Source: a virus. From it: a DNA stretch of 54,245 nt. A program made the position numbers and the translations under genes. The stretch spans positions 1-54,245 of IMG/VR virus record IMGVR_UViG_3300022213_000006; one strand, written 5' to 3'. This document shows, one piece after another, positions 1 through 53,889 of the stretch (the stretch's first letter is position 1; every line of letters starts with the position of its first letter). Below the pieces are notes generated by a model. It saw nothing but the letters and a program-made list of their open reading frames with translations. It searched no databases and was not told the origin of the DNA.

Positions 1-258
1 CGCTGCGACGGCATCCTCGACATGCTGCGCTACGACGCGGCGACCGTGATCGAGCGGTACCGCGGATTCTGGGTCTTCTCCCGCCCCGAGAACCCTCCGA
101 CTACCGGCCGATGGGCGAGCTTCCGCATGACGCCGCTCCACTTCGACGGGCTCGACTACACGCGGGGCGTGTACGAGATGCGGACCCGGATCGATTCACA
201 CCTGGGTGGCCCGCTCCCGCGGCCCGGCACCGTCTTTGATCGGAGGATCTCGTCGTGA
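1..258 (+). CDS. Hypothetical protein, 5' end outside the window
   Basis: The frame is already open at base 1 (R-C-D-G-I-L-D precedes the first ATG at 22) and that ATG has no Shine-Dalgarno sequence, so this is probably the 3' part of a longer gene. About 85 residues are visible, including a DMLRYD stretch, many aromatic residues and a basic C-terminus. I do not recognise the family. Its TGA overlaps the GTG of the next gene (GTGA), and the GGAGG serving that gene lies inside this one, which suggests translational coupling. If the ATG at 22 is the true start, the product is 78 residues. Confidence 0.6.
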   Translation, partial: RCDGILDMLRYDAATVIERYRGFWVFSRPENPPTTGRWASFRMTPLHFDGLDYTRGVYEMRTRIDSHLGGPLPRPGTVFDRRISS

Positions 259-467
259 GACGTTTCACTCTCAGCTACCGCACCTCGAACGGGGATGTAC
301 TTCGACTCTTCAACCTTTCTTCTTCTGCGGCGGATGAAATTATCTCCGCGCAGACAGCCCTCGGTTCGTCTGACTTCGTCCGGTACGCGCAAACTCGAGA
401 GTACGCCGACGTGGAGTGCGTGTTCCTTCGGCGCCACCCGTTACCGGAAATGGGTCATCTTTCCTAA
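255..467 (+). CDS. Hypothetical small protein
   Basis: This 70-residue product starts at a GTG preceded by GGAGG and overlaps the upstream stop by 4 bp. It has a hydrophilic beta-like N-terminus (RRFTLSYRT) and a helical middle. No motif is recognised. The stop codon lies inside the sequence CCTAACAACTT (463-473), one of the recurring TTGTTA-type motifs of this arm. A longer overlapping frame beginning at 295 is explained by the next gene, which starts at 484. Confidence 0.6.
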   Translation: MRRFTLSYRTSNGDVLRLFNLSSSAADEIISAQTALGSSDFVRYAQTREYADVECVFLRRHPLPEMGHLS

Positions 468-483
468 CAACTTGGAGGCTGTG

Positions 484-795
484 ATGGGCCCGACTTGGAA
501 TCCGCGCTACGTCGCATACGCACGAGAGCAGGGTCGCACGCCTCGAGCCCAGGCGTGCCACGACCTTAATAACTTCGAGTTCACGCAGTGGGTCCGTCGA
601 AAACGAGAGGCGGTGCTCGTAGACGGGCAGCCCTGCCGAGACTTTCGAGATCTGATCGGAGGCTCTACGCGCTTCGGCGGTCTCGAATACCACGCGATGA
701 TTGACGCGATCCTTGGTGTGGTCGAGGAAGATCGCAATGTCCCCTACGACTTCGAGGGGTACGATGCCGAATGGCGGGCCCTTCGCGAAAGATGA
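484..795 (+). CDS. Hypothetical protein
   Basis: This gene encodes 103 residues. The frame is open from 295, but the ATG at 484 has a good Shine-Dalgarno sequence (GGAGG at 474-478) and follows the stop of the previous gene, so that start is chosen; a GTG at 481 is the alternative. The product is charged and soluble, with no membrane segment, and ends in an acidic helical part (GVVEEDRNVPYDF). No family is recognised. Immediately downstream lies the first conserved promoter of the arm (798-847). Confidence 0.65.
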   Translation: MGPTWNPRYVAYAREQGRTPRAQACHDLNNFEFTQWVRRKREAVLVDGQPCRDFRDLIGGSTRFGGLEYHAMIDAILGVVEEDRNVPYDFEGYDAEWRALRER

Positions 796-797
796 AT

Positions 798-847
798 GAA
801 ATGCGAGCACTTTCTCCTTGCGGGTTGTTTTCGATTCGTGGTACGGT
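798..847 (+). promoter_or_regulatory. Early promoter P1, conserved 50-bp element
   Basis: A -35-like TTGCGG (818-823), 18-bp spacer and TACGGT (842-847) sit ahead of the gene at 874. The element aligns without gaps with 5715-5764. The blocks GAAATGCGAGCACTTT (798-813), TTGCGG, GTTTT and CGTGGTA are shared, so an upstream activator or UP-like site may be part of it. The leader CATCAACTGAGGAGA is also found after the promoter at 6199. Confidence 0.65.
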
Positions 848-873
848 TCCGTCATCAACTGAGGAGATCTGAA

Positions 874-1194
874 ATGTCGGACCTGTTCACCACGGAAGCC
901 TGCACGGACTGCGGAGCCATCGCCGATTCGGACGGCTTCATGAGTCACACGCACGCGTGCGCTTCGGCTCGCGCGTTCTGGGGTGAGGAAACCCGCACGG
1001 CGCCGCTCAGCGTCTCGTTCGGCCCGGTGGATCCCATGAACCCGCAATGCGGCTACGAGCTGCGCATTACGCGCCAGGATGGGAGCACGCTGCTCTTCAC
1101 GGGTTGCGACCCGGTGACCGGCGCGAACCTGCTGTCCGTCGAGGATTGCCTGCGCGTGGTGTCGTACTACGTGGTGAACGGCGCGCCCTTCTAG
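874..1194 (+). CDS. Hypothetical Cys/His-rich protein
   Basis: This gene encodes 106 residues and is the first gene after promoter P1. The frame is open from 796, but the ATG at 874 follows GAGGAG (861-866) with normal spacing and avoids starting inside the promoter. The N-terminus holds CTDC at residues 10-13 followed by an HTHAC group, a possible zinc site (inference). The rest is beta-rich. It is not recognised. The methyltransferase gene follows 27 bp downstream, probably on the same transcript. Confidence 0.7.
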   Translation: MSDLFTTEACTDCGAIADSDGFMSHTHACASARAFWGEETRTAPLSVSFGPVDPMNPQCGYELRITRQDGSTLLFTGCDPVTGANLLSVEDCLRVVSYYVVNGAPF

Positions 1195-1221
1195 TCGGCC
1201 AAAGAAACGAGGAGCAACTCC

Positions 1222-2196
1222 ATGCAACCGGCACTCGATCTCTTTTCCGGCCTCGGCGGCTGGACGACCGGCGCCAAGCAGAGCACCTCGGTGCGCGTGC
1301 GCGTCGCGCTGAACCACGACGCGGATGCAATCCGCTGGCACGCGGCGGCGCACCCTGAAGTGCGCCATCTGCGCCAGGATGCGGCGGACGCCGACTTCGG
1401 GGCCCTGGTCTCGGAAGTGGGCGGTGGCGTGCTTCTCGCGTCGCCTACGTGCCAGCAGGACTCGCAGTGCGCGCGGCCGGCGCGCGCGGGAACCGGCGGG
1501 AACGGCACCGTAAACGTCGCCGAGTTGATGATGCGCAACCGCGCTCGCCGCTCGACTGCGCACGCCGTGCTCGTCGCCGCGGAGCTGCTCGAACCTCGGG
1601 TGCTGATCGTCGAGAACGTCTCGCAGTTCGCCGAGTGGAACATGTTCGGCGCGTGGCTCGGGTGGCTGCAGGCGCTGGGCTACACGACGCGCGTGCATCG
1701 CCTGAACGCGGCGGACTACGGTGCGGCGACGGATCGCGAGCGCCTGATCGTGACCGCCGCGCGCGGGCGCGCGATCGAGCTGGCGCCCACGTTCGGCGCC
1801 GGCAGGGCGAACGGTCGCCGCCTGCGCGACTGCCTCGATCCCGACGACGCCCCGGAGAACCGCTGGCACGCGATCGACAGCAAGCCGCCTCGCACGCGCG
1901 ACTTGATTCGCTCGAAGCAAACGGCACTCCGTCGCGGCGTGCTCAACAACGTGAGCGCTGGCGTCCGGCTGCGCGCGCTCGATGATTTGGCCCCGACGCT
2001 CACGACGAAGAGCGGGTCGCAGTTGATGCTCGTCGACGAGGATCGCGTGCGCATCCTCAATCCGCGCGAGCTGGCGCGCATCCAGGGCTGGACTGGAACT
2101 GAGCCGCTCCCGAGCGATCGATCGACGGCAAGCCGCCTTCTCGGCAACGCTGTGCCCGTGGAGCTTGCTGCCGGGGTGATCGCTCAGACGGTCTGA
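1222..2196 (+). CDS. DNA (cytosine-5) methyltransferase
   Basis: This 324-residue product should transfer a methyl group from S-adenosylmethionine to C5 of cytosine in phage DNA. Family motifs appear in order: DLFSGLGG (residues 6-13, SAM binding), SPTCQQDS with the catalytic Cys at 77 (a variant of the usual PCQ loop), VENV near 131, ATDRERL (motif VIII-like), RELARIQGW and GNAVP near the C-terminus. The ATG follows GAGGAG. No restriction endonuclease is adjacent, so it is an orphan enzyme, probably protecting the phage genome or marking it. The family assignment is firm; the target site cannot be read from the sequence. Confidence 0.93.
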   Translation: MQPALDLFSGLGGWTTGAKQSTSVRVRVALNHDADAIRWHAAAHPEVRHLRQDAADADFGALVSEVGGGVLLASPTCQQDSQCARPARAGTGGNGTVNVAELMMRNRARRSTAHAVLVAAELLEPRVLIVENVSQFAEWNMFGAWLGWLQALGYTTRVHRLNAADYGAATDRERLIVTAARGRAIELAPTFGAGRANGRRLRDCLDPDDAPENRWHAIDSKPPRTRDLIRSKQTALRRGVLNNVSAGVRLRALDDLAPTLTTKSGSQLMLVDEDRVRILNPRELARIQGWTGTEPLPSDRSTASRLLGNAVPVELAAGVIAQTV

Positions 2197-2236
2197 GCGT
2201 CCTCGACCTCGGATTCTCGAGACGGAGATTCGAACA

Positions 2237-2437
2237 ATGTGGGTGTACCTGAAGAGCGAACGCTCGCTGTGGACGGTGGGCTACTACGACCCGCGCGGCC
2301 GCTGGGTGGCAGACAGCGACCACTCCTCACGGGAAGCGGCGACTGAGCGCGTGCATTTCCTGAACGGGGGCCGGGAGTCGAAGCCGGATACCTCACCGTT
2401 TCTCGATGTCGATCCGCGTCCGGCGATCAAGCTCTGA
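2237..2437 (+). CDS. Hypothetical phage protein
   Basis: This 66-residue product starts with ATG after GGAG. The N-terminus MWVYLKSERSLWTVGYYDP is rich in aromatics and likely a small beta fold; a helical AATERVHFLNGG part follows. Short proteins of this shape are common in phage early regions but have no assigned function that I know. The TGA overlaps the next ATG by one base (TGATG), suggesting coupled translation. Confidence 0.7.
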   Translation: MWVYLKSERSLWTVGYYDPRGRWVADSDHSSREAATERVHFLNGGRESKPDTSPFLDVDPRPAIKL

Positions 2438-2724
2438 TGTTCGACGGGCAAAACCTCTGGGTGCTGAGTCGAGACGTATGGCACCTGTCTCGGCCTCCTG
2501 CGCACGAGGCGATCTATGAGTTGCAGTGCTGTGAGGCTTCGATCGAGAATCCGAGCACGCTGTGGAGTTCCACGCAGCTCGCTGAGAAGCCGGCACCGAG
2601 CTTCAAGCAAAAACTCTGCTGGCAGGCACGACAGATCTCGGATCTGCGCGTGTCAATCAATCAACTTTCTGAACAACTCGAGAAGTTGTTAAGGAACAGG
2701 TCGAGATCATTCCGACCTGTATGA
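2437..2724 (+). CDS. Hypothetical protein with C-terminal coiled coil
   Basis: This 95-residue product is coupled to the preceding gene by a TGATG overlap. The N-terminal half is Trp-rich, while residues 60-85 form a likely coiled coil (QISDLRVSINQLSEQLEKLL). No family is recognised. The coding region holds an inverted repeat, AACAACT-5 bp-AGTTGTT (2672-2690), which belongs to the recurring TTGTTA motif set. Confidence 0.6.
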   Translation: MFDGQNLWVLSRDVWHLSRPPAHEAIYELQCCEASIENPSTLWSSTQLAEKPAPSFKQKLCWQARQISDLRVSINQLSEQLEKLLRNRSRSFRPV

Positions 2725-2734
2725 GGAGACGAGA

Positions 2735-3100
2735 ATGATGAGGCAAATTGTTAGGGATCTGTGGGTGGAAGCTCTCGAAAGCGGGCGCTACACGCAGTGT
2801 CGGAATTTTCTTTCCCGTGGTGGGGCTAAGCGCTGCGCGCTTGGAGTTCTCTGCGAAGTGCTTGCGGACATGCAGGCTGCGCCTGCGAGTGTGCGACTGA
2901 GCGCTCGGCGTGCCCTGGACGACAGCGTCAGCGCGGTCCCTCCGGATGTAGCCCGTTTCGCCGGTTTTCCGGGCGAAGTTACTGGGCCGTTCATTCGCGT
3001 CTCTGCAGAGGGTGAGGAAGGTCTGTTCGCAGTCGGAGAGTTGAATGACGAAGGCTTCAACTTTCGTGCTCTTGCGCGGTTGCTCCGAGAGCAGGCTTGA
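2735..3100 (+). CDS. Conserved phage protein of unknown function (CxLGVLCE type)
   Basis: This 121-residue product starts with ATG ATG after GAGGAG. It begins with a helix (RDLWVEALESGRY) and then KRCALGVLCEVLAD, a signature I know from many phage and bacterial proteins of unknown function that read roughly W-x-ALRSG...CLGVLC. The C-terminal part (GELNDEGFNF, then ALARLL) is typical of the same family. Probably soluble. TTGTTAGGGA lies within its first codons. Confidence 0.75.
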   Translation: MMRQIVRDLWVEALESGRYTQCRNFLSRGGAKRCALGVLCEVLADMQAAPASVRLSARRALDDSVSAVPPDVARFAGFPGEVTGPFIRVSAEGEEGLFAVGELNDEGFNFRALARLLREQA

Positions 3101-3137
3101 AAAAATCCTGCTAGGCCTTGCTGCATCATGATGACAC

Positions 3138-3205
3138 GGGCGCATAGCTCAACTGGTAGAGCGGCCGGATTTCAACCCGGGCGGTTGCGGCGCTTCAGCG
3201 ATACC
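3138..3205 (+). other. tRNA-like 5' half, probably a truncated or degenerate tRNA
   Basis: Bases 3138-3175 follow a tRNA plan: GGGCGCA acceptor strand (3138-3144), TA, D-arm GCTC-AACTGGTA-GAGC (3147-3162), and an anticodon-like loop ATTTCAA (3169-3175) that would read TTC (Glu). The 3' side of the anticodon stem pairs poorly. No T-arm (GGTTCRANNCC) and no TGCGCCC acceptor complement follow. Instead there is a small hairpin CGC-TTCA-GCG. It cannot fold as a normal tRNA and is best read as a remnant or a mimic. The 195-bp stretch 3101-3295 holds nothing else I can name. Confidence 0.4.
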
Positions 3206-3295
3206 GACCATTCCGAGGCCTTCAGGCACTGGAAGTCCGAGTAGCTCCACGACGGGCGGGGAGGGAGACCTCCTCGCTCGTCCTCGGGGAGGCCC

Positions 3296-3517
3296 ATGGC
3301 AGCGAAGAAACATGTTGGCAAGGTCAAGATGACGACCGAGAAAATTTTCTTGGGCACGAAGCTATTTGCAGAAGTCACTCTGCCTGTCTCGGAGTTGGGG
3401 CGGTTCCGCGATCGCATGTATTGGGTGCTTGTCTCAAGCCGGGCGTCCTCGGATCTTCCGCCGTACATCACCGTAAAATTCAAACACAAACCCGAAAGGG
3501 GAGTCCTTGACGCCTGA
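3296..3517 (+). CDS. Hypothetical protein
   Basis: This 73-residue basic product starts with ATG closely after GGGGAGG. Sequence is beta-rich (KIFLGTKLFAEVTLPVSEL, then PYITVKFKHKPERG). No motif is recognised. It is first in a tight run of genes that leads to the sigma factor: the next gene overlaps it by 11 bp. Confidence 0.6.
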   Translation: MAAKKHVGKVKMTTEKIFLGTKLFAEVTLPVSELGRFRDRMYWVLVSSRASSDLPPYITVKFKHKPERGVLDA

Positions 3518-3770
3518 GCAAGAAGGCTCGATCGAGCTGGTCGCCATGCGGGCATATCGTGCTTGGATGGAGTCCTGCAGCAACGGACGCGTGGCAATCA
3601 CTGACTCGAGACTCCGCGCCGCTTGGCGCCTACTCTCTTCAGACAAACGCGTCGCGTGGCGCAAGGTGGCACTCGTACTTTTGACTGATTGTCCTGAGCT
3701 TTCTCCGTCGAGAGTGCGAGGGGCAGTACGAGACACGGAAATCATCACTCACAAGTTGTTAGGGGGATAG
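3507..3770 (+). CDS. Hypothetical helical protein
   Basis: This gene encodes 87 residues from a TTG start at 3507, preceded by AAAGGGGAG at suitable spacing; it overlaps the previous gene by 11 bp. Predicted mostly helical and basic, with no membrane segment and no known motif. The last codons hold AAGTTGTTAGGGGGA (3753-3767), which serves both as a copy of the TTGTTA motif and as the Shine-Dalgarno sequence of the next gene. Confidence 0.6.
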   Translation: MTPEQEGSIELVAMRAYRAWMESCSNGRVAITDSRLRAAWRLLSSDKRVAWRKVALVLLTDCPELSPSRVRGAVRDTEIITHKLLGG

Positions 3771-3772
3771 TC

Positions 3773-4027
3773 GTGATACTGGCCGTTGTTTATGGGGCCG
3801 TTGTCGGGCTCTGCTACGTCGTTTACAGCCTGAGTTCGACTGACAGGCAAGCGAACTTGATCGCGTCTGTACTGTGGCCGCTCTCGGCACTGGTCGGCGC
3901 CGCGGTCTCTGCACTTTTTGCAGTCTCAGCGCTTGCCCTGTGGGTAGCTGTCCCTGTGTTCGTCGCGAGTTCCGTCGTGAGGACACTCGTGCGTAGTTTC
4001 AGCAGCACGATTCAAGGACGATGGTAA
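3773..4027 (+). CDS. Small membrane protein, two transmembrane segments
   Basis: This 84-residue product has a GTG start after AGGGGGA. Two hydrophobic spans are evident (residues about 2-20 and 30-65), separated by a short polar loop containing SSTDRQ and followed by a basic tail. The second stretch is long enough for two passes. No family is recognised. It lies directly upstream of, and overlaps by one base, the sigma factor gene. Confidence 0.6.
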   Translation: MILAVVYGAVVGLCYVVYSLSSTDRQANLIASVLWPLSALVGAAVSALFAVSALALWVAVPVFVASSVVRTLVRSFSSTIQGRW

Positions 4028-4761
4028 TGCAAGATGTATGCGTGCTAGAGATCGAGAAGCAAGAACTACCAGGCAACACTTTGACTAGGTCGCAGCGCAT
4101 CGCCGCTCACCAGGGCATTGTGTTTCAGATTGTCAACCGTTTGTGGGCCCGTTTGCGCGGTATCTACTGGATCGACTACGACGACCTGGCTCAGTGGGCC
4201 CAAGCTGGGTTGATTCATGCGGTGGACAACTACCGTCCCGGAGTGGAAGGTCGCGAGTGGGCTTCTTTCTACACGTACGCATACCACTGTGTACACGGGT
4301 ACGCGTTGCAGGTGTTCGCGGATGACAGTCAGGTCACGAAGTGGAGTGCCACGTATCGGAGGCAGATGCGTGGAAACCCAACCTCGTACCAAGCTTTGCC
4401 TTCTCCTTCGCCCACGTTCATCCCCTTCGATTTCCTAGAACACACAGGAACTTCGACGGATTCCGAGGCGGGAACCTTGCTGGAATTCGAGATCAATAGT
4501 CAGCTCAACGAGACTCGCACAGGAGACCCCGACGACTCAGAACACGTCGTACTCTGTGCAGAAGCTTGGAAGAGTCTCAGCCAACTTTCTCCGCGTGAGC
4601 GTAAGATCCTGATCGATCGCGCCAACGAAATCACACTCGAACAGATCGGGGTAGAGCTTGGTGTATCTCGAGAGCGTGTGAGGCAAATCGAGCGAACGGC
4701 GCTGAATAAGTTGCGAGCATTCCTAACAATCTCAGGTAAGCGTCGACGTGACCAATCATAG
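4027..4761 (+). CDS. Phage-encoded sigma-70 family RNA polymerase sigma factor
   Basis: This 244-residue product should bind host core RNA polymerase and direct it to phage promoters. A region-2-like block lies at about residues 30-105 (IVNRLWARLRG, DYDDLAQWAQAGLIHAV, FYTYAYHCVHGYA). A variable linker follows, then a clear region 4: LSPRERKILIDRA and the helix-turn-helix LEQIGVELGVSRERVRQI, ending ERTALNKLRAFL. Region 4.2 resembles housekeeping sigma-70 rather than ECF factors. The ATG at 4027 overlaps the previous TAA and has AAGGA 8 bp upstream; an ATG at 4021 is less well spaced. The downstream gene overlaps it by 14 bp. Confidence 0.88.
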   Translation: MQDVCVLEIEKQELPGNTLTRSQRIAAHQGIVFQIVNRLWARLRGIYWIDYDDLAQWAQAGLIHAVDNYRPGVEGREWASFYTYAYHCVHGYALQVFADDSQVTKWSATYRRQMRGNPTSYQALPSPSPTFIPFDFLEHTGTSTDSEAGTLLEFEINSQLNETRTGDPDDSEHVVLCAEAWKSLSQLSPRERKILIDRANEITLEQIGVELGVSRERVRQIERTALNKLRAFLTISGKRRRDQS

Positions 4762-5275
4762 GTACAGTGACGCGCAGAGATGGTTTCGTGAAGCCCTTGT
4801 CCGCCGTCTGGAGACCTGTGCTGCACAGATGAACACTCTGCTCTCTGAGATTCCACGCGGTAGCCTGCGCTATTGGACGCTGACTGTGGCTACTCGGGAG
4901 GACTACTCAGAGATTTTCCACCAGGCGAGCGAGTTAGCTCGCGTTGCCATCGCGCTCGGGCGACTGCGGGTGGCGGGTCGCAAATCGATATTGGAGGTAC
5001 AGCGGGTGCTTGAAGAGATCCGCGAGCAAGATCCGCAGATTGCCCAAGGGCTCGAGTCCGATGTTGTTATGGCGCTGCAGATTGCCGGCTACGACGTGCA
5101 GGTCCACGCGGAGCCTGTTGTGGAGTTGGCGCCGCCGATTGATGCCGCACCAATCGAAGCTCCCGTGGAGCCGAACCTTTCAGAGTTGCCAAGCACATCG
5201 CGGGGTGCCGCTCGGTCGACCTCCGGGTTTGTCTCCGCCAATACAGCGAAGCAGCGCATGCCCTGGGAGTACTAG
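4748..5275 (+). CDS. Hypothetical protein, possible sigma-factor partner
   Basis: This 175-residue product has a GTG start inside the 3' end of the sigma gene (14-bp overlap, AGGTAAG upstream), so the two are probably translated together. Residues 1-110 are helical and charged; residues 120-160 are low complexity, rich in Pro, Ala and Glu (VVELAPPIDAAPIEAPVEP); the C-terminus is MPWEY. No domain is recognised. The stop overlaps by 3 bp the stop of the leftward gene that follows. Confidence 0.65.
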   Translation: MTNHRYSDAQRWFREALVRRLETCAAQMNTLLSEIPRGSLRYWTLTVATREDYSEIFHQASELARVAIALGRLRVAGRKSILEVQRVLEEIREQDPQIAQGLESDVVMALQIAGYDVQVHAEPVVELAPPIDAAPIEAPVEPNLSELPSTSRGAARSTSGFVSANTAKQRMPWEY

Positions 5276-5622
5276 TACTGCCCCCGTTCTTCGGCCTCTC
5301 TCTGAGTTATTAGGTTGAGGCTCCTCAATCGGAACGACGCCATTCGTTCCTCCGTGACGCTGTAGCAGTACGAGCTTCCGAGCTGTCGTACCTTGCCTTT
5401 GAGGCCCGGGTATCGGTTCCAGATGCGCGAGCTGAGCGCTTCGAAAAGTTGCGATAGCACGGAGCCCGCGGCGATGGTCTCAAAGGCCTCCACGCAGGTG
5501 GCTCGTCGCCCATCCTCGTAGGCCTCGATCACTGCTTCCACCGCGGCACGCACTTCCGCCTCGCCCACATCTTTGACGGGCTCGAATTCCACGCTGATGA
5601 CGACGGGGATTTGGACGCGCAC
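5272..5622 (-). CDS. Hypothetical protein on the opposite strand
   Basis: This 116-residue product is read leftward, tail to tail with the gene ending at 5275. The composition is that of a real protein: an acidic N-terminal part (VISVEFEPVKDVGEAEVRA), a long helix and a basic C-terminal part. The frame is open from 5838, but the GTG at 5622 has GGAG 6 bp upstream and lies about 20 nt after a TTGCGC-18-TACGCT promoter (5649-5678), so that start is preferred. It is the only opposite-strand gene of ordinary size in the left arm. Function unknown. Confidence 0.62.
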   Translation of the reverse strand: MRVQIPVVISVEFEPVKDVGEAEVRAAVEAVIEAYEDGRRATCVEAFETIAAGSVLSQLFEALSSRIWNRYPGLKGKVRQLGSSYCYSVTEERMASFRLRSLNLITQREAEERGQY

Positions 5623-5648
5623 AGGCTTCTCCGCTTGGTTGATCCACC

Positions 5649-5678
5649 AGCGTACCACGTGGTTGTTTCGATGCGCAA
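5649..5678 (-). promoter_or_regulatory. Leftward promoter of the conserved family
   Basis: Read leftward: TTGCGC (5678-5673), an 18-bp spacer ending CACGTGG, then TACGCT (5654-5649). The layout CGTGG-TACG(G/C)T matches promoter P1. It would start RNA near 5642, about 20 nt ahead of the GTG at 5622. Confidence 0.55.
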
Positions 5679-5714
5679 GGGAAATTTTGGTCCAGCCCGC
5701 AAAATTTATTTTTT

Positions 5715-5764
5715 GAAATGCGAGCACTTTTCTGTTGCGGATCGTTTTGGACCCGTGGTAGTGT
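5715..5764 (+). promoter_or_regulatory. Early promoter P2, second copy of the conserved 50-bp element
   Basis: TTGCGG (5735-5740), an 18-bp spacer and TAGTGT (5759-5764) sit upstream of the gene at 5790. The 16-bp upstream block (5715-5730) is identical to that of P1 and has the same spacing. It lies back to back with the leftward promoter at 5649-5678, leaving an A/T-rich centre between them. Confidence 0.65.
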
Positions 5765-5789
5765 TCATTCCATCGAAAGGGAGACGGCG

Positions 5790-6167
5790 ATGGCGAACAA
5801 GGTCCACGACTACAGCTCGAAGAACCGCAAGGCGGCACGCGCGACGGAGCGCCAGAAGTCGGCGGCGATCATCGCGGAGTCCGCAGACAGCGCTCCGCGC
5901 CTGGCGACCCACGCGAACTTGCAGCAGCTGATCTCGGAGCTGAGCGTCGTGGCTCTGGGGGAGTTCGAGTTCGGCGACCGCGACCTGGGCGTCTTGTACC
6001 AGAGCGTGGCCATGTCGCTGTCCGCTTGGGAGCTGCCGAGCGCGGCGGATTACGAGGCGCTTGCGGAGGCCTGGGAGCTGCGCGGCGACAATGAGCCGCG
6101 CCACGACCTTCTGCTCCACCTCGCGAAGACTCTCACCGCTCTCGGCGGCGAGGATTTCCGGGGCTGA
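5790..6167 (+). CDS. Hypothetical helical protein
   Basis: This 125-residue product starts with ATG after GGGAGA, directly downstream of promoter P2. The N-terminus is basic (NKVHDYSSKNRKAARATER) and the rest is helical and acidic (LGEFEFGDRDLGVLYQSVA, WELPSAADYEALAEAWEL). No known domain. It is followed by an A-rich gap and another promoter, so it may be a single-gene unit expressed early. Confidence 0.7.
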   Translation: MANKVHDYSSKNRKAARATERQKSAAIIAESADSAPRLATHANLQQLISELSVVALGEFEFGDRDLGVLYQSVAMSLSAWELPSAADYEALAEAWELRGDNEPRHDLLLHLAKTLTALGGEDFRG

Positions 6168-6198
6168 AAAAAAAACGCACGAGACCCCCAAAAAAGAT

Positions 6199-6228
6199 TT
6201 GCATGGAGCGTGGGTTTCGAGATACATT
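6199..6228 (+). promoter_or_regulatory. Early promoter P3
   Basis: TTGCAT (6199-6204), an 18-bp spacer and TACATT (6223-6228) precede the gene at 6255. The leader CATCAACTGAGGAGA is identical to that following P1. The upstream flank has two A-runs (about 6168-6196) but lacks the GAAATGCGAGCACTTT block. Confidence 0.6.
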
Positions 6229-6254
6229 CCACGCATCAACTGAGGAGAACGCAG

Positions 6255-6725
6255 ATGACGAACTGGATCAGCGAGAAGGCGCTCGAGCGCGCGACCGTGG
6301 TGCAAGACCTGGAGGTCTCAGAGCTGTTCGCCCTTCGCGTCAGCAACCCCGCCATGCCCGCGGTGCTCGCGGCATGCGGGCACATCCGCACGGGTCGCGG
6401 CGTCACGGAGCTGTCGGGCCCCTGCGTGGCCTGCAAGGACGAGGGCTGGCTCTCCCCCGCCGAGCGCGCGGTGAAGGAAGAAAACGACCGTCTTGCGAAG
6501 ATCCGCTGGGACGAGCTGGCGCACAAGCACCTGATCCACTCGCTGCGCGAACTGGCGCAGCGCATCGAGGACGGTTGCGAGTCGTGCAAGTGGGCCGCGA
6601 AGCAGATGATCGCCGGCAAGGGGCTGCCGTTTGCGCCTCGGCACGAGGGCTCGGAGCACTGCCGCTCGGGTTCGATTGCGAGCGGGGGCAAGCACGCGCA
6701 CTGCACCTGCGACACCTGCTTCTAA
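6255..6725 (+). CDS. Putative zinc-binding early protein
   Basis: This gene encodes 156 residues. The ATG at 6255 follows GAGGAG; the longer frame from 6210 would start inside the promoter region. Cysteine pairs suggest metal sites: GPCVACKDEG, ESCKW, and a C-terminal Cys/His cluster ending HAHCTCDTCF. The central part is helical and charged. The C-terminal block looks like a self-contained module ending exactly at the stop. Function unknown; nucleic-acid binding is possible but only inferred. Confidence 0.72.
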   Translation: MTNWISEKALERATVVQDLEVSELFALRVSNPAMPAVLAACGHIRTGRGVTELSGPCVACKDEGWLSPAERAVKEENDRLAKIRWDELAHKHLIHSLRELAQRIEDGCESCKWAAKQMIAGKGLPFAPRHEGSEHCRSGSIASGGKHAHCTCDTCF

Positions 6726-6748
6726 CCCCAACTAGGAGGGCCTAACAA

Positions 6749-6994
6749 GTGGACGAACGAATCCTGAAGGAACTGAGGGGCATTCGCAAGGCGCTGCAGG
6801 CGTTCGTCGCGATCCAGCGTGCCGATGTGCGGCGCATCTCGAAGTTCGAGCGCGAGGCCGCGCGCGAGGCGAAAGCAGCGAAGGAGGAGGCACGGAACCT
6901 GACCCGCATTCGTGAGCAGCGTTCGACCAGCGACTGGATCCGACCTTGCCACGTGGAGGAAGTTGATGCGGACGAGCAAGGCCCGTTCGCGTGA
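6749..6994 (+). CDS. Hypothetical coiled-coil protein
   Basis: This 81-residue product has a GTG start after GGAGGG. The spacer between Shine-Dalgarno and start contains CCTAACAAGT, a copy of the recurring TTGTTA motif. Residues 1-60 are one long charged helix (DERILKELRGIRKALQAF, then FEREAAREAKAAKEEARN), followed by a short tail. Its stop overlaps the next start. No family recognised. Confidence 0.6.
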   Translation: MDERILKELRGIRKALQAFVAIQRADVRRISKFEREAAREAKAAKEEARNLTRIREQRSTSDWIRPCHVEEVDADEQGPFA

Positions 6995-7299
6995 TGTCTG
7001 TGTTGCTGTTCGTCGTGGTGGCAATTCTTGCCTATCAAGCGGCGAAGCGGGGCCTGGTTTTGTTGTCCCTCGTTCTTTTCGTCCCTCTCGTCGGACTCGG
7101 ATTCGAGGACAACCCGTGGGCGTGGTTCCTCACGTATGGAATCCTGGCATGGTGCCTCTCCCGGTGGATTCCTGAGCCCGACGAGAGGGCGCCGGACCTG
7201 ACAGTCGCAGATGCGGAGCCGGACGAAACCCCTCCGCAAAAACCTAAGAAACCAAGGACTCGACCAAAGAGTCGAGCACACCTGAAAGTGGTCAAATGA
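6994..7299 (+). CDS. Membrane protein with charged cytoplasmic tail
   Basis: This 101-residue product has its ATG overlapping the preceding TGA. Two transmembrane spans lie in the first 50 residues (SVLLFVVVAILAYQA, then LVLFVPLVGLGF to ILAWCLSRW). The C-terminal half is hydrophilic, acidic first and then very basic (PQKPKKPRTRPKSRAHLK). It could be an early membrane factor; function unknown. Its stop overlaps the next ATG (ATGA). Confidence 0.65.
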   Translation: MSVLLFVVVAILAYQAAKRGLVLLSLVLFVPLVGLGFEDNPWAWFLTYGILAWCLSRWIPEPDERAPDLTVADAEPDETPPQKPKKPRTRPKSRAHLKVVK

Positions 7300-8015
7300 C
7301 GGATCAAGCGGCGAAAGATTTCGAAGCGGTGACGGTCGACAACGTGCTCGCTGGGTACGTGCGGCGCTCAGAGTCTGTCGAGGCGTGGGGCGCCTACAGC
7401 AAAAATCAGAAGCTACTCGCATGGTATCGCTTCCCCGAGTACGCCCGAATGGAAGTGAAGACCCGCCACCGTGCGCTGCTCAAAGCGCGTGCGACTCGCA
7501 GCCGCAACAAACAACCTCGAGACGCGCAGCGCGCGAAGCTCTACAAGGCGGAGTGGGCTGCGCTGGGGAGTATGCAGCTGCGCAGTGGACGCACGATCGC
7601 CGAAGTGAACACCTGGCTTACCTCGTTGTTAGAGATCTACCGCGAGCGCTACGAAAAAGTGCCCACCTTCGTGCAGGTGGAATCCAGCTCCGGGAACCAC
7701 GCGATTTGGTCTCGCAACGTGATCCGTTTGACGCTCCGAGGCCGAGAACAGGATTGGGTGTGCTTGCATGAGCTGGCGCATCTCCTCGTAAAGGAAAACC
7801 CGGGGCATGGGCGGAAATTCGCGAGTGTCTACTTGACCCTGGTCACGGAAGTCTGCGGTCGCATTTGGGGAGACAGATTGCGAGAGGCGTTCCGGGAGCA
7901 CGGTGTGAAGTATCAGGCCAAGCGAGAGCTTTCTCCCGCTCGTTTGGCGGCGCTCCGCGAGCGCGGCAAGCAGCTTGCAGCCTCGCGCTGGGGATCCCCA
8001 TCTGCACCGATCTAG
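7296..8015 (+). CDS. HExxH zinc metallopeptidase-like protein
   Basis: This 239-residue product carries HELAH at 158-162 and, ten residues later, NPGHGRKF with a third His near 171. That layout is typical of SprT-like and related phage/actinobacterial putative metallohydrolases. The N-terminal 100 residues are basic and helical and may bind nucleic acid. The catalytic zinc ligands and Glu are all present, so it may cleave protein, perhaps a host DNA-bound factor; the substrate is unknown. Its TTG-TTA leucine pair (7624-7635) is an odd codon choice in this GC-rich gene and forms a copy of the recurring motif. Confidence 0.78.
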   Translation: MTDQAAKDFEAVTVDNVLAGYVRRSESVEAWGAYSKNQKLLAWYRFPEYARMEVKTRHRALLKARATRSRNKQPRDAQRAKLYKAEWAALGSMQLRSGRTIAEVNTWLTSLLEIYRERYEKVPTFVQVESSSGNHAIWSRNVIRLTLRGREQDWVCLHELAHLLVKENPGHGRKFASVYLTLVTEVCGRIWGDRLREAFREHGVKYQAKRELSPARLAALRERGKQLAASRWGSPSAPI

Positions 8016-8023
8016 GCGTCTAC

Positions 8024-8236
8024 TTGTCGTTTTTCCTGGCGCTCGGCGGAGCTGGACTTATGCTCCTCTCCCTGCTGCGCGATAGCCAACGCACGTTGGT
8101 TTTGGGGGCCATCGCGATATGTCTATCCCTGGTGACTTTGACCGCGACGCAGATGTTGTTCGCCACGCCACGATTCGGGGCGTGCAGTCTGACGTTGGAG
8201 ATGGACAAGAGTGCGTCATCCTTACGCTTGCCCTGA
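8024..8236 (+). CDS. Small membrane protein, two transmembrane spans
   Basis: This 70-residue product begins at a proposed TTG with a weak AGG upstream. The frame is open further upstream inside the metallopeptidase gene, but only from here is it protein-like. Two good membrane spans (LSFFLALGGAGLMLLSLL; TLVLGAIAICLSLVTL) are joined by RDSQR, a holin- or accessory-like plan. The last 118 bp overlap the next gene in another frame. Third-position GC is higher in this frame than in the overlapping one. Confidence 0.45.
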   Translation: MSFFLALGGAGLMLLSLLRDSQRTLVLGAIAICLSLVTLTATQMLFATPRFGACSLTLEMDKSASSLRLP

Positions 8237-8331
8237 CGATGCCAGTTGGTGATGGGGAGGCGTTCGTCGCCGCGATCGGTGATTTAATCTCCGACCTCGG
8301 CTACCAGATCAACGCGAAGCTCGTGGACTGA
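8119..8331 (+). CDS. Hypothetical protein overlapping a membrane protein gene
   Basis: This 70-residue product starts with ATG with GGGGG upstream. The sequence looks like a small alpha/beta domain (TIRGVQSDVGDGQECVILTL, then GEAFVAAIGDLISDLGYQI). It shares 118 bp with the membrane protein frame, so one of the two may be spurious or the region is dual coding. No family is recognised. Confidence 0.5.
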   Translation: MSIPGDFDRDADVVRHATIRGVQSDVGDGQECVILTLALTMPVGDGEAFVAAIGDLISDLGYQINAKLVD

Positions 8332-8341
8332 AAGGTCTCGC

Positions 8342-8647
8342 ATGGTCTGCGTCCTAATAATCTGCGGGTGGTGCGGCGGAGACATTCGACCGCCCGACGA
8401 CAGTTACCGCGTGATTCGCTCGCGGCCCGCTTGCTCGACGTGTGTCGAGCGCGGAGTTACTGCAGTTGCTTCAAGAGGAGGATCTGATGTCGGAGTTGCA
8501 CACGACGGACGCAGAAATCGCGTTCGTGCGAGGTCTGGGAACAAACACGCGCGCGGCCATGCGCGCAACGCAAGCGGGCCGCAAAGCGATGCTGGAACAG
8601 ACCGCGAAGCTGCTTCAGGGGTACCTGCGAAGTCTTCCGTTCCGTAG
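8342..8647 (+). CDS. Zinc-ribbon-like small protein, 3' end uncertain
   Basis: ATG with AAAGG 7 bp upstream, a well-supported start. The first 40 residues form a zinc-ribbon pattern: CGWCG near residue 9 and CSTC near residue 31. Beyond that the frame stays open to 8647 but becomes Arg/Gly/Ser-rich and overlaps the strongly supported gene at 8487 by 161 bp. Either the real protein is short and its stop has been lost by mutation or sequencing error, or the frames are joined by a shift. The product is 101 residues as written. Confidence 0.4.
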   Translation: MVCVLIICGWCGGDIRPPDDSYRVIRSRPACSTCVERGVTAVASRGGSDVGVAHDGRRNRVRARSGNKHARGHARNASGPQSDAGTDREAASGVPAKSSVP

Positions 8648-8738
8648 CCGGCGCGAGTACATCGACTTTCGGCAAGTGGAGACCGCCGCGACTGAGCGGC
8701 TTCGAGACGTGCAGCGGGCGCTACTGGCTCTGAACTAG
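8487..8738 (+). CDS. Hypothetical helical protein
   Basis: This 83-residue product starts with ATG after GAGGAGG with ideal spacing. All-helical and charged (AEIAFVRGLGTNTRAAM, then EQTAKLLQGYL). The frame is open back to a GTG at 8442, but the Shine-Dalgarno decides for 8487. It lies just upstream of the primase-helicase. No family is recognised. Confidence 0.65.
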   Translation: MSELHTTDAEIAFVRGLGTNTRAAMRATQAGRKAMLEQTAKLLQGYLRSLPFRSRREYIDFRQVETAATERLRDVQRALLALN

Positions 8739-8749
8739 CCGAGCCCTTC

Positions 8750-10651
8750 GTGGAACGCACGCTTAAACCTCGCCACATCCGCCTGCTCGCCGAAAAAGCG
8801 GTGAGCCTCGATGTGGCCAAGGCTCGCGGGTATTGGTCGCTCGACAGCGCCGATGATTTTCCCAAGCTGGGCTGGGCAAGTCGTGGTCGCAACGCGGCGC
8901 CAAAGTGGCTTCGCCCACCGGGCCTAACAATTCCCCTGTTCTCCCCGGTCGATCTCGAGATTGGCGAGATCGAGAGTTGTTATTCCCAGTTCCGGCCGGA
9001 TCGCCCGGTTGAAGACGACAAGGGCAAGACGCGCAAGTACGTAAACCCCTCCGGCACGCGCGCCATCATCGACGTACATCCGGCGTTCTTCGGGACCGAT
9101 GCGTGGACTGATCGCGACACGCCGCTGTTCATCGTGGAGGGTGTCCCGAAAGAAGACGCGCTTTGGTCCATTGGGATTCCCGCCGTCTCGATTCAAGGGG
9201 TCTGGAATTTCACAAGCGAGAACCCTGACACGCACTACCGGGAGATCCTGCAGGATTTCCGGTATCTCCCCGTTGCGGGTCGTGAAGTTGTTATTGGGTT
9301 CGACGCGGATGCTTGGACGAATCGCGCGGTGCGCGCGGCTGCGCGCGAGCTGGGACGCATTCTTGGGCGCGGTAACGGCGGCGCTTCTGCGGTTCGAGCT
9401 TTACGCCTTCCACACCCTGAGAAGAAGTGGGGTGTGGATGACTTCTTGGCGGACGGCGGCACGCGGGAGTCGCTGCTTGAGCTGATTGTCGATCTCGACA
9501 AGCTCGCCCACGGTGGCCTCAGCGTCCAAGCGCTGAGCGAGATCGCGCCGATGCCGCCCGAGTGTTTGTGGGAGCCGTACCTGATCCGCAACACGTTGGG
9601 CTTTCTGGATGGTGCGCCTGGCGTGGGCAAGACGTGGATCGCGCTGAGCCTCGCAGCTGCCGTAACAACTGGTGGCTCGATGCCGAGTGCCTTCCGAACG
9701 GACAAGGGCAAGATGAGTCGTTGGCCGATCCCGAAAGGCAACGTCGTCTACATCACGCACGAGAACGATCCGAGCACAGCGCTGCGCCCTCGCTTTGATC
9801 GACTCGGCGGCGACGCGTCCAAGTTCTTCGTGCTCGCAACTGGGGATCCTGAAAGCGACGCGTTCACGTTGCAAGACATCGAGCCCCTCGAGAAAATGAT
9901 CGAAGAAATTAAACCCGTGCTCGTCGTGCTCGACCCCATCATGAATTTCCTCGGCGCGAAGACGGATGCACACCGAGACAATGAAGTGCGTCCGCTGCTG
10001 TCGAAGCTCATGCGTCTCGCGTCCAACCACCAGACCACGATGCTTGGCATTCGACACTTGCGAAAGGATTCGACGGGGAGCGCGGTGTACGCGGCTGGTG
10101 GTTCCGTTGCGTTCTCCGGCACGGCTCGCAGTGTTATTATGGCCGGCCGTTATTTCGGAGAGAACGAGTCGGAGAAGCTCGTGCTCGCCCACTCAAAAAC
10201 CAACGAGACTCCCGCTGGCGCGTCGCTCGAATTCGCGGTGACGAACGAGGGCAAGGACGATAAGGGGTTCTACAACGTCGCCTTCGAGTGGCGCGGCGTT
10301 CTGACTGTGCGCGCAGACGAGTTGGTCTCTCAGAAGGCGCCCACGAAAGCGCCGGCCACAAAGCCTCGGGACAAGCTCGCGAATCTGCTCGTCACCCTGC
10401 TCGCACAGAATCCCAACGGCGTCCCGACCACGGTGGTGGCCACCGCGATGAAGAGCATGGAGCTGGCTCCCACGACGCTTAAGCGCGTGGCCGAAGAGAT
10501 CCGCATCCAGCGTGTGCGCGTGGAGCCGCCGAAAGGCAGTCGATCGCGCAAATCCCCGTATTACGTGTGGAAGTACCTGGAAGGCGAGGAACCGGCGAAG
10601 GGTCGAGATTCTGTAGATATTTCACAGAATACCCCTAGCGCGAAGTTTTGA
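8750..10651 (+). CDS. Bifunctional primase-helicase (DUF3854-like TOPRIM plus RecA-like ATPase)
   Basis: This 633-residue product starts at GTG. The N-terminal part carries a TOPRIM-like fold: the acidic FIVEG loop with Glu130 and GFDADAW near 185, typical of DUF3854 primase domains, followed by WGVDDFL. The C-terminal part is a RepA/RecA-type hexameric ATPase: Walker A GAPGVGKT at 288-295, VLVVLDPIMNF as Walker B, and a later GIRHLRKDS loop. A winged-helix-like tail may follow after residue 540. It probably unwinds and primes phage DNA for the polymerase at 13755. TTGTTA-type sites occur at 8933, 8975, 9285 and 9663 inside the gene. Confidence 0.85.
   Translation: MERTLKPRHIRLLAEKAVSLDVAKARGYWSLDSADDFPKLGWASRGRNAAPKWLRPPGLTIPLFSPVDLEIGEIESCYSQFRPDRPVEDDKGKTRKYVNPSGTRAIIDVHPAFFGTDAWTDRDTPLFIVEGVPKEDALWSIGIPAVSIQGVWNFTSENPDTHYREILQDFRYLPVAGREVVIGFDADAWTNRAVRAAARELGRILGRGNGGASAVRALRLPHPEKKWGVDDFLADGGTRESLLELIVDLDKLAHGGLSVQALSEIAPMPPECLWEPYLIRNTLGFLDGAPGVGKTWIALSLAAAVTTGGSMPSAFRTDKGKMSRWPIPKGNVVYITHENDPSTALRPRFDRLGGDASKFFVLATGDPESDAFTLQDIEPLEKMIEEIKPVLVVLDPIMNFLGAKTDAHRDNEVRPLLSKLMRLASNHQTTMLGIRHLRKDSTGSAVYAAGGSVAFSGTARSVIMAGRYFGENESEKLVLAHSKTNETPAGASLEFAVTNEGKDDKGFYNVAFEWRGVLTVRADELVSQKAPTKAPATKPRDKLANLLVTLLAQNPNGVPTTVVATAMKSMELAPTTLKRVAEEIRIQRVRVEPPKGSRSRKSPYYVWKYLEGEEPAKGRDSVDISQNTPSAKF
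10608..10630. promoter_or_regulatory. Inverted repeat upstream of promoter P4
   Basis: ATTCTGT (10608-10614), a 9-bp AT-rich spacer and ACAGAAT (10624-10630) form a perfect 7-bp inverted repeat just ahead of the promoter at 10635-10664, inside the last codons of the primase-helicase. The size and position fit an operator for a dimeric regulator; the protein is unknown. Confidence 0.4.
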
Positions 10652-10664
10652 TCCGCGGTAAGAT
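10635..10664 (+). promoter_or_regulatory. Early/middle promoter P4
   Basis: TAAGAT (10659-10664) preceded by GTTTTGATCCGCGG resembles P2 (GTTTTGGACCCGTGG then TAGTGT) at the same spacing. The -35 hexamer CTAGCG (10635-10640) is poor, so activation may be needed, in line with the inverted repeat just upstream. It serves the gene at 10709. Confidence 0.5.
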
Positions 10665-10708
10665 TCCCTCGCATTGATTGGGACACATTCAACACGAGGA
10701 GTTTTAAA

Positions 10709-11167
10709 ATGACGCCGTCCCGGTTCCCGAAGGAAATCACCATCTCCGTCCCGCAGATCCCGAAGATGCCGAAGGCTCCGGCGTCGAAGGTCGACCGCCT
10801 GTACGAGCTGCGCGAGGCACGCCTCGCTTTCGGCCGCGCCATCGGGGAGGCGGAGAAGCTCCTGAGCCGCATCAAGGAAGTCGAGGAGGAGATCGCCCTG
10901 GAGCTGTCCGCAGAGCTGCGCAAGCTCGGCGGCGCGACGAAGCTCTCCGGCGAAGTGGCGACGTTCGCCCCCAGCACGACCCCGGTGTACGCAGTGGCTG
11001 ACTGGGATGCGTTCTATGCCCACATCAAGAAGAACGACGCTTGGGATCTCCTGGAGCGCCGCCCGGCTCGCGCCGCTTTGAATGCCCGGTTCGATGAGCA
11101 CAAGGCGGTCCCGGGCATCCAGCAGGACCGCAAGTTCTCCTACTCGCTGACCAAGGCGAGCCGCTAA
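10709..11167 (+). CDS. Hypothetical coiled-coil protein with its own promoter
   Basis: This 152-residue product starts with ATG after GAGGAG. Residues 1-25 are Pro/Lys-rich (VPQIPKMPKAPASK), residues 28-75 form a strong coiled coil (LYELREARLAFGRAIGEAEK, IKEVEEEIALELSAEL), and the C-terminal half is compact and basic (NDAWDLLERRPARAALNARF). Its position after primase-helicase with a dedicated promoter suggests a protein needed in quantity during replication. No family recognised. Confidence 0.7.
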   Translation: MTPSRFPKEITISVPQIPKMPKAPASKVDRLYELREARLAFGRAIGEAEKLLSRIKEVEEEIALELSAELRKLGGATKLSGEVATFAPSTTPVYAVADWDAFYAHIKKNDAWDLLERRPARAALNARFDEHKAVPGIQQDRKFSYSLTKASR

Positions 11168-11187
11168 GCCAACAAAAACCCTAATAA

Positions 11188-11301
11188 GAAAGGAGGTGGT
11201 AGCAACGAGCATCGAGCCAGCTTCGGGTCTGAGAGCGGACAGGACCGCTCGATCCTCAGCTCGGCGTCCTCCGAGTCGAATCTTGCGGCTGGTCACGCAA
11301 G
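11188..11301 (+). other. Structured leader or candidate non-coding RNA
   Basis: A perfect AAGGAGGT anti-anti-SD sequence (11190-11197) has no ATG/GTG/TTG start at normal distance. It is followed by three perfect hairpins: GAGCGG-6-CCGCTC (11233-11250), CTCGG-6-CCGAG (11260-11275) and CTTGCG-8-CGCAAG (11282-11301). CTGAG (11229-11233) can also pair with CTCAG (11255-11259) around the first stem. The stretch between the genes at 10709 and 11348 has no convincing ORF. It may control the Fis-like gene or act as an RNA of its own. Confidence 0.4.
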
Positions 11302-11347
11302 CGAAGCTCGATCTGGTTCGATGGCCGTTGCTATCACTGGAAAGAGA

Positions 11348-11548
11348 ATGAAGACGAAAGTTTCCATCGAGAACGCGAAGGACTACAAGCTGACGAAGCA
11401 GCTCTTCGACGCTGCTTACGCGCGTGAAGTCATGTCCGCTTGCAAGGGCAACGTCACCGAAGCTGCCCGCTTCGCCGGCAAAGAGCGCAAGGACTTCTAC
11501 GATCTGCTCAAGCGTGCAGAGGTTTCTCCGCAGGAATTTCGAGAATGA
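11348..11548 (+). CDS. Fis/NtrC C-terminal-type helix-turn-helix protein
   Basis: This 66-residue product is small and basic. FDAAYAREVMSACKGNVTEA followed by ARFAGKERKDFYDLLKR matches the Fis-type helix-turn-helix (HTH_8) found at the C-terminus of NtrC-like regulators, where a GNVTxAAR turn is typical. It lacks any AAA or receiver domain, so it is probably a free-standing DNA-binding protein acting on phage or host promoters. The ATG at 11348 has GGAAAGAGA upstream; an in-frame ATG at 11321 has no Shine-Dalgarno. Stop overlaps the next start (ATGA). Confidence 0.7.
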   Translation: MKTKVSIENAKDYKLTKQLFDAAYAREVMSACKGNVTEAARFAGKERKDFYDLLKRAEVSPQEFRE

Positions 11549-11880
11549 CGCGCAGTCGTGAAATCGAAGCGGCACTCTGGAGCCGGATCTCCGATCCGGG
11601 GTTGCCCGAGCAGTCAAGGAGCCTCACCTACCTGACGCTGGTGCTCCTGGACTTGGCGGAGAGCGTGGCTTCGATTCAAGCGGCACCCGCTGCGTCGCCT
11701 GTGAGCGCGGAACCGTCCGTTGAAACTCGAGAATCCCTCGCCTACCTCAGTCAGTCTCTGGCCGAGTACCAGGACATTCTCACGCGCGAGCCGACAGCGC
11801 GCATGCCGTGGGGAGCGTTGCGAGAAAAAGGGGAGCAGCTCCGAGCCGCCATCGAGGACGTTCAGCGTCGAGGCCTGTAG
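11545..11880 (+). CDS. Hypothetical helical protein
   Basis: This 111-residue product starts at the ATGA overlap with the Fis-like gene; the longer frame from 11440 has no support. It is helical throughout, with a short Ala/Pro-rich stretch around residue 50 separating two helical parts (SLTYLTLVLLDLAESVASI; SLAYLSQSLAEYQDIL). No known domain. Confidence 0.65.
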   Translation: MTRSREIEAALWSRISDPGLPEQSRSLTYLTLVLLDLAESVASIQAAPAASPVSAEPSVETRESLAYLSQSLAEYQDILTREPTARMPWGALREKGEQLRAAIEDVQRRGL

Positions 11881-11890
11881 GAGGACGACA

Positions 11891-12361
11891 ATGCTTGATT
11901 CTTTGTTGCGTTGGATCGACAACCGAGGCGGTGCGGTTTGGATTCGAGATAACAATTACCTGAAGCGCCACTTCATCGTCTCCTCCAAACACTTCGGAGT
12001 TCTGCTGCACGAGTGGCATGGCTCCGATCCCGATCGGCCGCATTGCCATCCCTGGTGGAGTGTCAGCATTCCACTGCGCGGATATTTGTTGGAACATTTC
12101 CACGACGACACTGTTCGGCACTTGGAGTTTGGACGAATCGCCATTCGCACGTCCCGAGAGCTGCACCGAATTGTGGTGCCGAAGCAGCGCACGCGCCCGG
12201 TGACGCTCTTCATACACGGTCCTGTGCGCCGAAAGTGGGGTTTCATTGCGCCCGCATCGGAGTGGCGTGATCGGTTCTGGGTTTCCGCGACATCCCTGGG
12301 AATTGAGAATTCGCGGAGGCAGCTTCGGGGATGGTTTTTCCCCCGGATTTCAAGCGAATGA
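11891..12361 (+). CDS. Cupin-like protein
   Basis: This 156-residue product starts with ATG after GGAGGA. The stretch LHEWHGSDPDRPHCHPWWSV followed by SIPLRGYLLEHF has the HxH-Pro-W and Gly-Tyr pattern of small phage/bacterial cupin-fold proteins, which usually hold a metal through His residues. The catalytic role is unknown; sugar or peptide modification is possible. A copy of the TTGTTA motif (GATAACAATTACC, 11948-11960) lies in the gene. Confidence 0.65.
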   Translation: MLDSLLRWIDNRGGAVWIRDNNYLKRHFIVSSKHFGVLLHEWHGSDPDRPHCHPWWSVSIPLRGYLLEHFHDDTVRHLEFGRIAIRTSRELHRIVVPKQRTRPVTLFIHGPVRRKWGFIAPASEWRDRFWVSATSLGIENSRRQLRGWFFPRISSE

Positions 12362-12582
12362 AAGAAGACGTCGTCTTCGGAATGACAAGACTGCCACATG
12401 TACCGCCAGAGAAACGAACGGAGTACGCACGACACATCCGCGAGTTGTCTTCGGTCATTCCGCTCGAAGATGCCTTGTCGATTTTCGTCTCCGAGGCCGC
12501 TGGGCGTGGCTGGCCTTCTGGGGCCCACGTCGAGATTAGAATTCGCACAGCGATCATTGCGCTGAGACAGGATCCAGCGTAG
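12358..12582 (+). CDS. Hypothetical protein
   Basis: This 74-residue product starts at the ATGA overlap (ATG 12358) with the cupin-like gene; an in-frame ATG at 12331 would give 83 residues, and neither has a clear Shine-Dalgarno. The sequence is helical and charged (PPEKRTEYARHIRELSSVI, LEDALSIFVSEAAG). No family recognised. The following gap holds a 6-bp hairpin CTTGCT-AAGGC-AGCAAG (12628-12644) without a U-run. Confidence 0.5.
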   Translation: MKEDVVFGMTRLPHVPPEKRTEYARHIRELSSVIPLEDALSIFVSEAAGRGWPSGAHVEIRIRTAIIALRQDPA

Positions 12583-12682
12583 GTTCGAAACACTAAATCC
12601 CAAAATTCTCACTCGCGTGATTTCGAGCTTGCTAAGGCAGCAAGTCTCCACCGACGTGGGGAATGTGCAGGAGCACAGCAAC

Positions 12683-53285: not shown

Positions 53286-53564
53286 ATGACGGACGAACTC
53301 AAAAACGCTCTACAACGTATCGGAACCCCTGCCTACGATCTCGCACTTGAGATCTATGAAAGCGAAGAGTCAGGCGAGGGGCTGGCGTACCGTCGTTTTG
53401 AGATTCAAGTCCAAACGACAAAGTCCGATGGCGAAACGCAGTTGCAGGTAATTCCCTGCGTCTGCATCGTCGCCACCGGACTCGGAGCCCAGGCCGCGGA
53501 AGCGGCCATAGACGAGTTCGCGCGGTTTATGCGCGAACGATCTAGGCAGACCCCCACTGCTTGA
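53286..53564 (+). CDS. Hypothetical protein, possibly on a leaderless mRNA
   Basis: This 92-residue product uses ATG 53286. No Shine-Dalgarno precedes it; TAAAAA at 53272-53277 would place the transcript start at or next to the ATG. Sequence: TDELKNALQRIGTPAYDLAL, YRRFEIQVQTTKSDGETQLQ, then a helical Ala-rich end. The divergent gene at 53256 leaves only 29 bp between starts. No domain recognised. Confidence 0.55.
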   Translation: MTDELKNALQRIGTPAYDLALEIYESEESGEGLAYRRFEIQVQTTKSDGETQLQVIPCVCIVATGLGAQAAEAAIDEFARFMRERSRQTPTA

Positions 53565-53832: not shown

Positions 53833-53873
53833 GTAGAACCCCATAAGGGCGCTCTCGTTCCCCAATGTTCTAC
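53833..53873. promoter_or_regulatory. GTAGAAC inverted repeat, candidate operator
   Basis: GTAGAAC (53833-53839) and its reverse complement GTTCTAC (53867-53873) are separated by 27 bp. Leftward, TAGAAC of the second arm is a -10 with TTGCAT 17 bp upstream (53895-53890), which would serve the regulator gene. Rightward, the first arm covers the likely start site of the other promoter. Confidence 0.45.
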
Positions 53874-53889
53874 ACCCCAGGAGCAAATT

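Follow-up and report, generated by a model that had tools for sequence, protein, structure and literature searches.

The question raised by this locus is whether five promoter-like strings sharing an 18-bp spacer (s1–s5; Table 1) form one family of promoters and, if so, which sigma factor reads them and what a repeat upstream of two of them contributes. They lie in an unclassified phage, whose 54,245-bp virus record (the window) carries its genes on the plus strand from the left end to ~22 kb and on the minus strand from there to ~53.9 kb, and encodes a DNA polymerase, a helicase, a primase-like protein, thymidylate synthase and siphophage structural proteins. Neither DNA nor protein comparisons with IMG/VR and GenBank phages turned up a close relative; the nearest named relatives, Stenotrophomonas phage AXL_3, Pseudoxanthomonas phage PW916 and MW202621, are related through the replication module, with protein identities of only 32–46%. 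Elsewhere in the genome, the minus-strand gene 38539–40071 contains degenerate direct repeats at 54-bp spacing (38816–39992), and the divergent intergenic region 53860–53940, between the late operon and the right-edge plus-strand gene, harbors a GTAGAAC...GTTCTAC inverted repeat as well as TTGCAT-17-TAGAAC on the minus strand.

Table 1. Coordinates of the promoter elements, their associated sequences and the genes discussed in the text.
Feature	Coordinates	Strand	Description
s1 core promoter	818..847	+	TTGCGG-18-TACGGT; extended -10 CGTGG
s2 core promoter	5735..5764	+	TTGCGG-18-TAGTGT; CGTGG
s3 core promoter	5649..5678	-	TTGCGC-18-TACGCT; CGTGG; divergent from s2
s4 core promoter	6199..6228	+	TTGCAT-18-TACATT
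s5 weak element	10635..10664	+	CTAGCG-18-TAAGAT; motif not separable from background
s1 block	797..813	+	TGAAATGCGAGCACTTT; ~-57 to -41 from predicted s1 start
s2 block	5714..5730	+	TGAAATGCGAGCACTTT; exact copy of 797-813
s1 predicted transcription start	854	+	A
s2 predicted transcription start	5772	+	A
s3 predicted transcription start	5643	-
s4 predicted transcription start	6235	+	A
s1 leader	853..867	+	CATCAACTGAGGAGA; has Shine-Dalgarno; exact copy at 6234-6248
s4 leader	6234..6248	+	CATCAACTGAGGAGA; same as s1
Gene behind s1	874..1194	+	106 aa; no family match; GC3 0.869
Gene behind s2	5790..6167	+	125 aa; no family match; GC3 0.897
Gene behind s3	5272..5622	-	116 aa; lone reverse gene; GC3 0.744
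Gene behind s4	6255..6725	+	156 aa; no family match; GC3 0.898, genome's highest
Gene behind s5	10709..11167	+	152 aa; PHROG 13900; GC3 0.882
Phage sigma-70-family factor	4021..4761	+	Region 4 clear, region 2 weak/diverged, no region 3 match; candidate alternative reader

All five strings, first picked out in a sequence-only reading, are present as written. The pattern TTGC-N18-TAnnnT occurs exactly four times in the 54 kb, both strands considered, against 1.73 expected from dinucleotide shuffles; these occurrences are s1–s4, and each of them lies just upstream of a gene start. When TGG is required before the TA, three sites are observed versus 0.03 expected. CGTGG does precede TA in three elements, s1–s3, which therefore carry TGn before TAnnnT, whereas s4 (GAG) and s5 (GCGG) do not. 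A -35 element with at least TTG at a distance of 16–19 bp is found in s1–s4 (TTGC, 18 bp) but not in s5, which has CTAGCG. Matches to the sigma-70 hexamers end at TTG in the -35 and at TA...T in the -10, and a scan of positions 1–13,000 with the E. coli sigma-70 consensus, from which that of the host may differ, gave 0 hits versus 1.9 expected in shuffles. In viral contigs, the promoter-core pattern yielded a single chance match, within an open reading frame. TGnTAnnnT as such is depleted genome-wide (10 observed on both strands versus 24 expected from dinucleotide shuffles).

The elements were then ranked with a leave-one-out position weight matrix composed of -35, extended -10 and start-site modules, in which the tested site was withheld and scored against 108,335 background positions. 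s1, s2 and s3 each outscored every background position; s4 came third genome-wide, with two positions above it, and first among promoter-zone positions, while s5 ranked 599th. The proposed family of five thus stands, by motif, for s1–s4, but not for s5, which is beaten by 598 background positions. The likeness of s1 and s2, partly due to duplication, inflates both of their scores, so that only s3 and s4 count as independent, with s4 relying on the start-site module, in the absence of which 201 background positions score as high. Expectation-maximization motif discovery on all upstream regions gave uninformative output, dominated by coding sequence. The motif model did not carry over to AXL3 and MW202621, where its top scores were at most 15.5 and mostly away from gene starts. 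A DNA match to MW202621, at first taken for the promoter region, actually lies inside the gene behind s5. In MW202621, moreover, an unannotated small gene at 36060–36360 (plus strand) runs counter to the annotated ones; its promoter, TTGGTATAAT, has a consensus extended -10, and CATCGACC occupies the start position.

The geometry of the elements is more regular than their placement 15–60 bp before a gene start, as originally described, would suggest. Proximity to genes holds, but the distance from the -35 to the start codon is 56, 55, 56 and 56 nt for s1, s2, s3 and s4, respectively, compared to 74 nt for s5; the starts had been called by a gene finder that uses codons and Shine-Dalgarno sequences and is blind to the promoter motif. 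Furthermore, ATC(A/G)A is found 5–7 nt past the -10 in s1–s4, where transcription is expected to start, while the counterpart in s5 is a weaker ATTGA, 8 nt past its -10. s1 and s4 additionally have in common a 15-bp leader, in exact register with the -10 and present in only these two copies. RNA structure in the leader was not significant, and an Rfam search of positions 1–12,000 gave no match. An intergenic tRNA-like 5' fragment at 3141–3195 (plus strand), comprising acceptor, D arm and anticodon arm, lacks a T arm and was called by neither ARAGORN nor Rfam; a 31-nt piece of it had zero exact matches in 84,980 genomes.

Codon usage in the downstream genes provides a further line of evidence. 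Among the 72 genes, those behind s4, s2, s5 and s1 rank first, second, third and fifth in GC3, and in codon usage the same four resemble the major capsid gene more than any others do (p 5e-5 by permutation among plus-strand genes); the gene behind s3 is without codon bias. GC3 tends to drop further downstream, from 0.87 to 0.86 and 0.81 in the genes at 874, 1222 and 2237, and from 0.90 to 0.77 and 0.65 in those at 6255, 6749 and 6994. G+C at first and second codon positions stays steady at ~0.55–0.57, the shift being confined to third positions, which argues against GC-rich islands. The pattern is in line with translational selection acting on genes that are highly expressed from strong promoters right before them, and the capsid-like codon usage supports such promoters at s1, s2, s4 and s5, the last of which has no support from the motif by itself; alternatively, these genes could stem from elsewhere and reflect different codon preferences. 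The left-edge gene 22–258 (plus strand; GC3 0.873, fourth of 72) is possibly highly expressed as well, from a promoter outside the window. Just upstream of s5, an inverted repeat, ATTCTGT-N9-ACAGAAT (10607–10630), constitutes a possible operator.

The promoter-like nature of the elements is hence well supported by motif statistics, start-codon geometry, the common start-site motif and downstream codon bias, and the set appears to consist of four promoters, with s5 perhaps a fifth. We consider it quite probable that s1–s4 represent sigma-70-type cassettes, with s5 as a weaker or diverged relative, that the host primary sigma reads them early, and that the upstream block adds a contact. Sequence, statistics, geometry and codon bias are the observations from which we infer transcription, its timing, the sigma factor and the role of the block. 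Each cassette would comprise a TTGC -35, an 18-bp spacer and a (TGn)TAnnnT -10, extended in three cases. The A of ATC(A/G)A would be the first nucleotide of a leader of ~20 nt that contains the Shine-Dalgarno sequence; early in infection, RNA polymerase with the host primary sigma would read the cassettes, so that small phage proteins are expressed at high levels. The block would afford s1 and s2 an extra contact to alpha-CTD or to a regulator, distinguishing both from the other elements.

The block had been described as 16 bp long; it is shared exactly by s1 and s2, as proposed, but its length is 17 bp. By itself, an exact 17-bp repeat is within chance for 54 kb (longest in shuffles, 14–18 bp). 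However, s1 and s2 match without gaps at 42 of 53 positions, while the runner-up to s1 anywhere reaches 29/53 (z ~9). The 11 mismatches spare the block (P 0.008) and, jointly, block, -35 and CGTGGTA (P 2e-5), both values being optimistic, as the segments were picked after looking. Still, such a distribution favors selection acting on three distinct segments over simple inheritance. The block occurs in two copies in the genome, is absent from s3–s5, is moderately AT-rich (AT 0.54–0.62 versus a genome mean of 0.40) and has unremarkable dyad symmetry, equaled by 17% of random 17-mers. It gave a single chance match in viral contigs, inside apparent coding sequence, and together with the -35 it was found in none of 84,980 public genomes.

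The region from about -57 to -41 is the zone bound by alpha-CTD and activators. Given its location there, the block is a possible activator site, and it probably offers alpha-CTD or a regulator a point of contact in s1 and s2. A narrower proposal, compatible with the cassette reading and to our minds somewhat less than an even bet, is that the block is an operator for a DNA-binding protein, of phage or host, that jointly activates or represses s1 and s2. Its persistence while neighboring positions changed, its position, and its occurrence at no more than two promoters, as a regulon would show, agree with this proposal, as does the presence of a LysR-type helix-turn-helix protein encoded at 53542–53811. 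On the other hand, the block contains no significant dyad and is limited to two genomic copies, and its AT content makes a UP-like alpha-CTD site equally possible. The LysR-type protein itself (minus strand, 89 aa) consists of little beyond the helix-turn-helix (Pfam HTH_1, 1.8e-11) and is encoded near the start of the late operon; it is a candidate regulator. If the block is a regulator site, the genome offers a clean comparison of promoters with it (s1, s2) and without it (s3, s4).

As to the sigma factor, the phage encodes a sigma-70-family protein of its own, whose region 4 helix, VSRERVRQIE, retains the TTG-reading residues. The cassettes could then belong to a phage regulon transcribed in the middle of infection or later, and there is precedent in phiEco32 and 7-11, in which host sigma-70 reads the early promoters and the phage sigma reads middle and late promoters with host-unlike motifs (PMC8948821). 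Several observations render this alternative unlikely. The elements are located in the small-gene/replication arm, with none found before the late operon, and their motif looks sigma-70-like, judged against a consensus that need not be the host's, while the phage sigmas compared, those of phiEco32 and 7-11, both read host-unlike motifs. s1 lies upstream of the phage sigma gene on the same strand, so that s1 could not depend on the phage factor unless a further promoter serves the sigma gene. TGn forms an extended -10, for which sigma region 3 is the reader, and promoters of this type favor spacers of at least 18 bp (PMC2613000); CGTGG and the 18-bp spacer thus correspond to an ordinary extended -10, and the "extended phage signal" once suggested for them is unneeded. 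The phage factor has no detectable region 3 for TGn and a diverged region 2, while TA...T together with TGn are targets of primary sigma factors. Target promoters of the phage sigma were not found in the window, and its AlphaFold model (pLDDT 43.6) was too poor for use. Compared with the phage sigmas of the GenBank phage set, the protein reaches ~27% identity at most; the genome is siphophage-like. Based on TGn, the missing region 3 match, the position of s1 and the phiEco32/7-11 precedent, we favor the host primary sigma as the likely reader of s1–s4.

We also doubt that block and cassette make up a dedicated two-promoter unit to which a new phage activator binds or which the divergent phage sigma reads; if true, the unit would imply a transcription program unlike that of related siphophages. 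Very improbable, finally, is that s1 and s2 are no more than a recent duplication, with the block inherited and non-functional: the two do match across 53 bp, but their mismatches spare block, -35 and extended -10 at the joint probability given above, and in the gap adjoining the block 0/4 positions match.

Returning to the cassettes read by the host primary sigma, the elements are a fresh example of an already known kind of promoter, in which promoter, leader and start follow a regular layout. For a phage without close relatives, they provide predicted start sites and a probably strong promoter set, and they illustrate that heavily expressed genes can be located by reading promoter elements jointly with the codon bias of the gene that comes first behind them.

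Among known systems, the elements resemble the extended -10 (TGn) sigma-70 promoters (PMC2613000) in the TTG of the -35, the 18-bp spacer and the TGnTAnnnT of s1–s3, as well as in the predicted start 5–7 nt downstream. They differ from such promoters in their weak hexamers, in the extra 17-bp block in two of them and in the lack of TGn in s4 and s5. As in phiEco32 and 7-11 (PMC8948821), they are early-arm promoters in a phage encoding its own sigma, with reading by the host sigma presumed in our case; unlike in those phages, at least four promoters are distributed over several short units. In cluster K mycobacteriophages, start-associated sequences (SAS) are a 13-bp GGGATAGGAGCCC-like motif in 11–19 copies, and the extended SAS (ESAS) are 17-bp imperfect inverted repeats (PMC3203893). 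In both cases, a repeat that includes the Shine-Dalgarno sequence is placed at a fixed short distance from the start codon in the non-structural half of the genome, and a subset carries an added upstream element, as does ESAS. In the present phage, however, the leader is CATCAACTGAGGAGA instead of a GGGATAGGAGCCC-like motif and precedes only two genes, the upstream block, a single 17-mer, does not form an inverted repeat, and one can recognize a core promoter.
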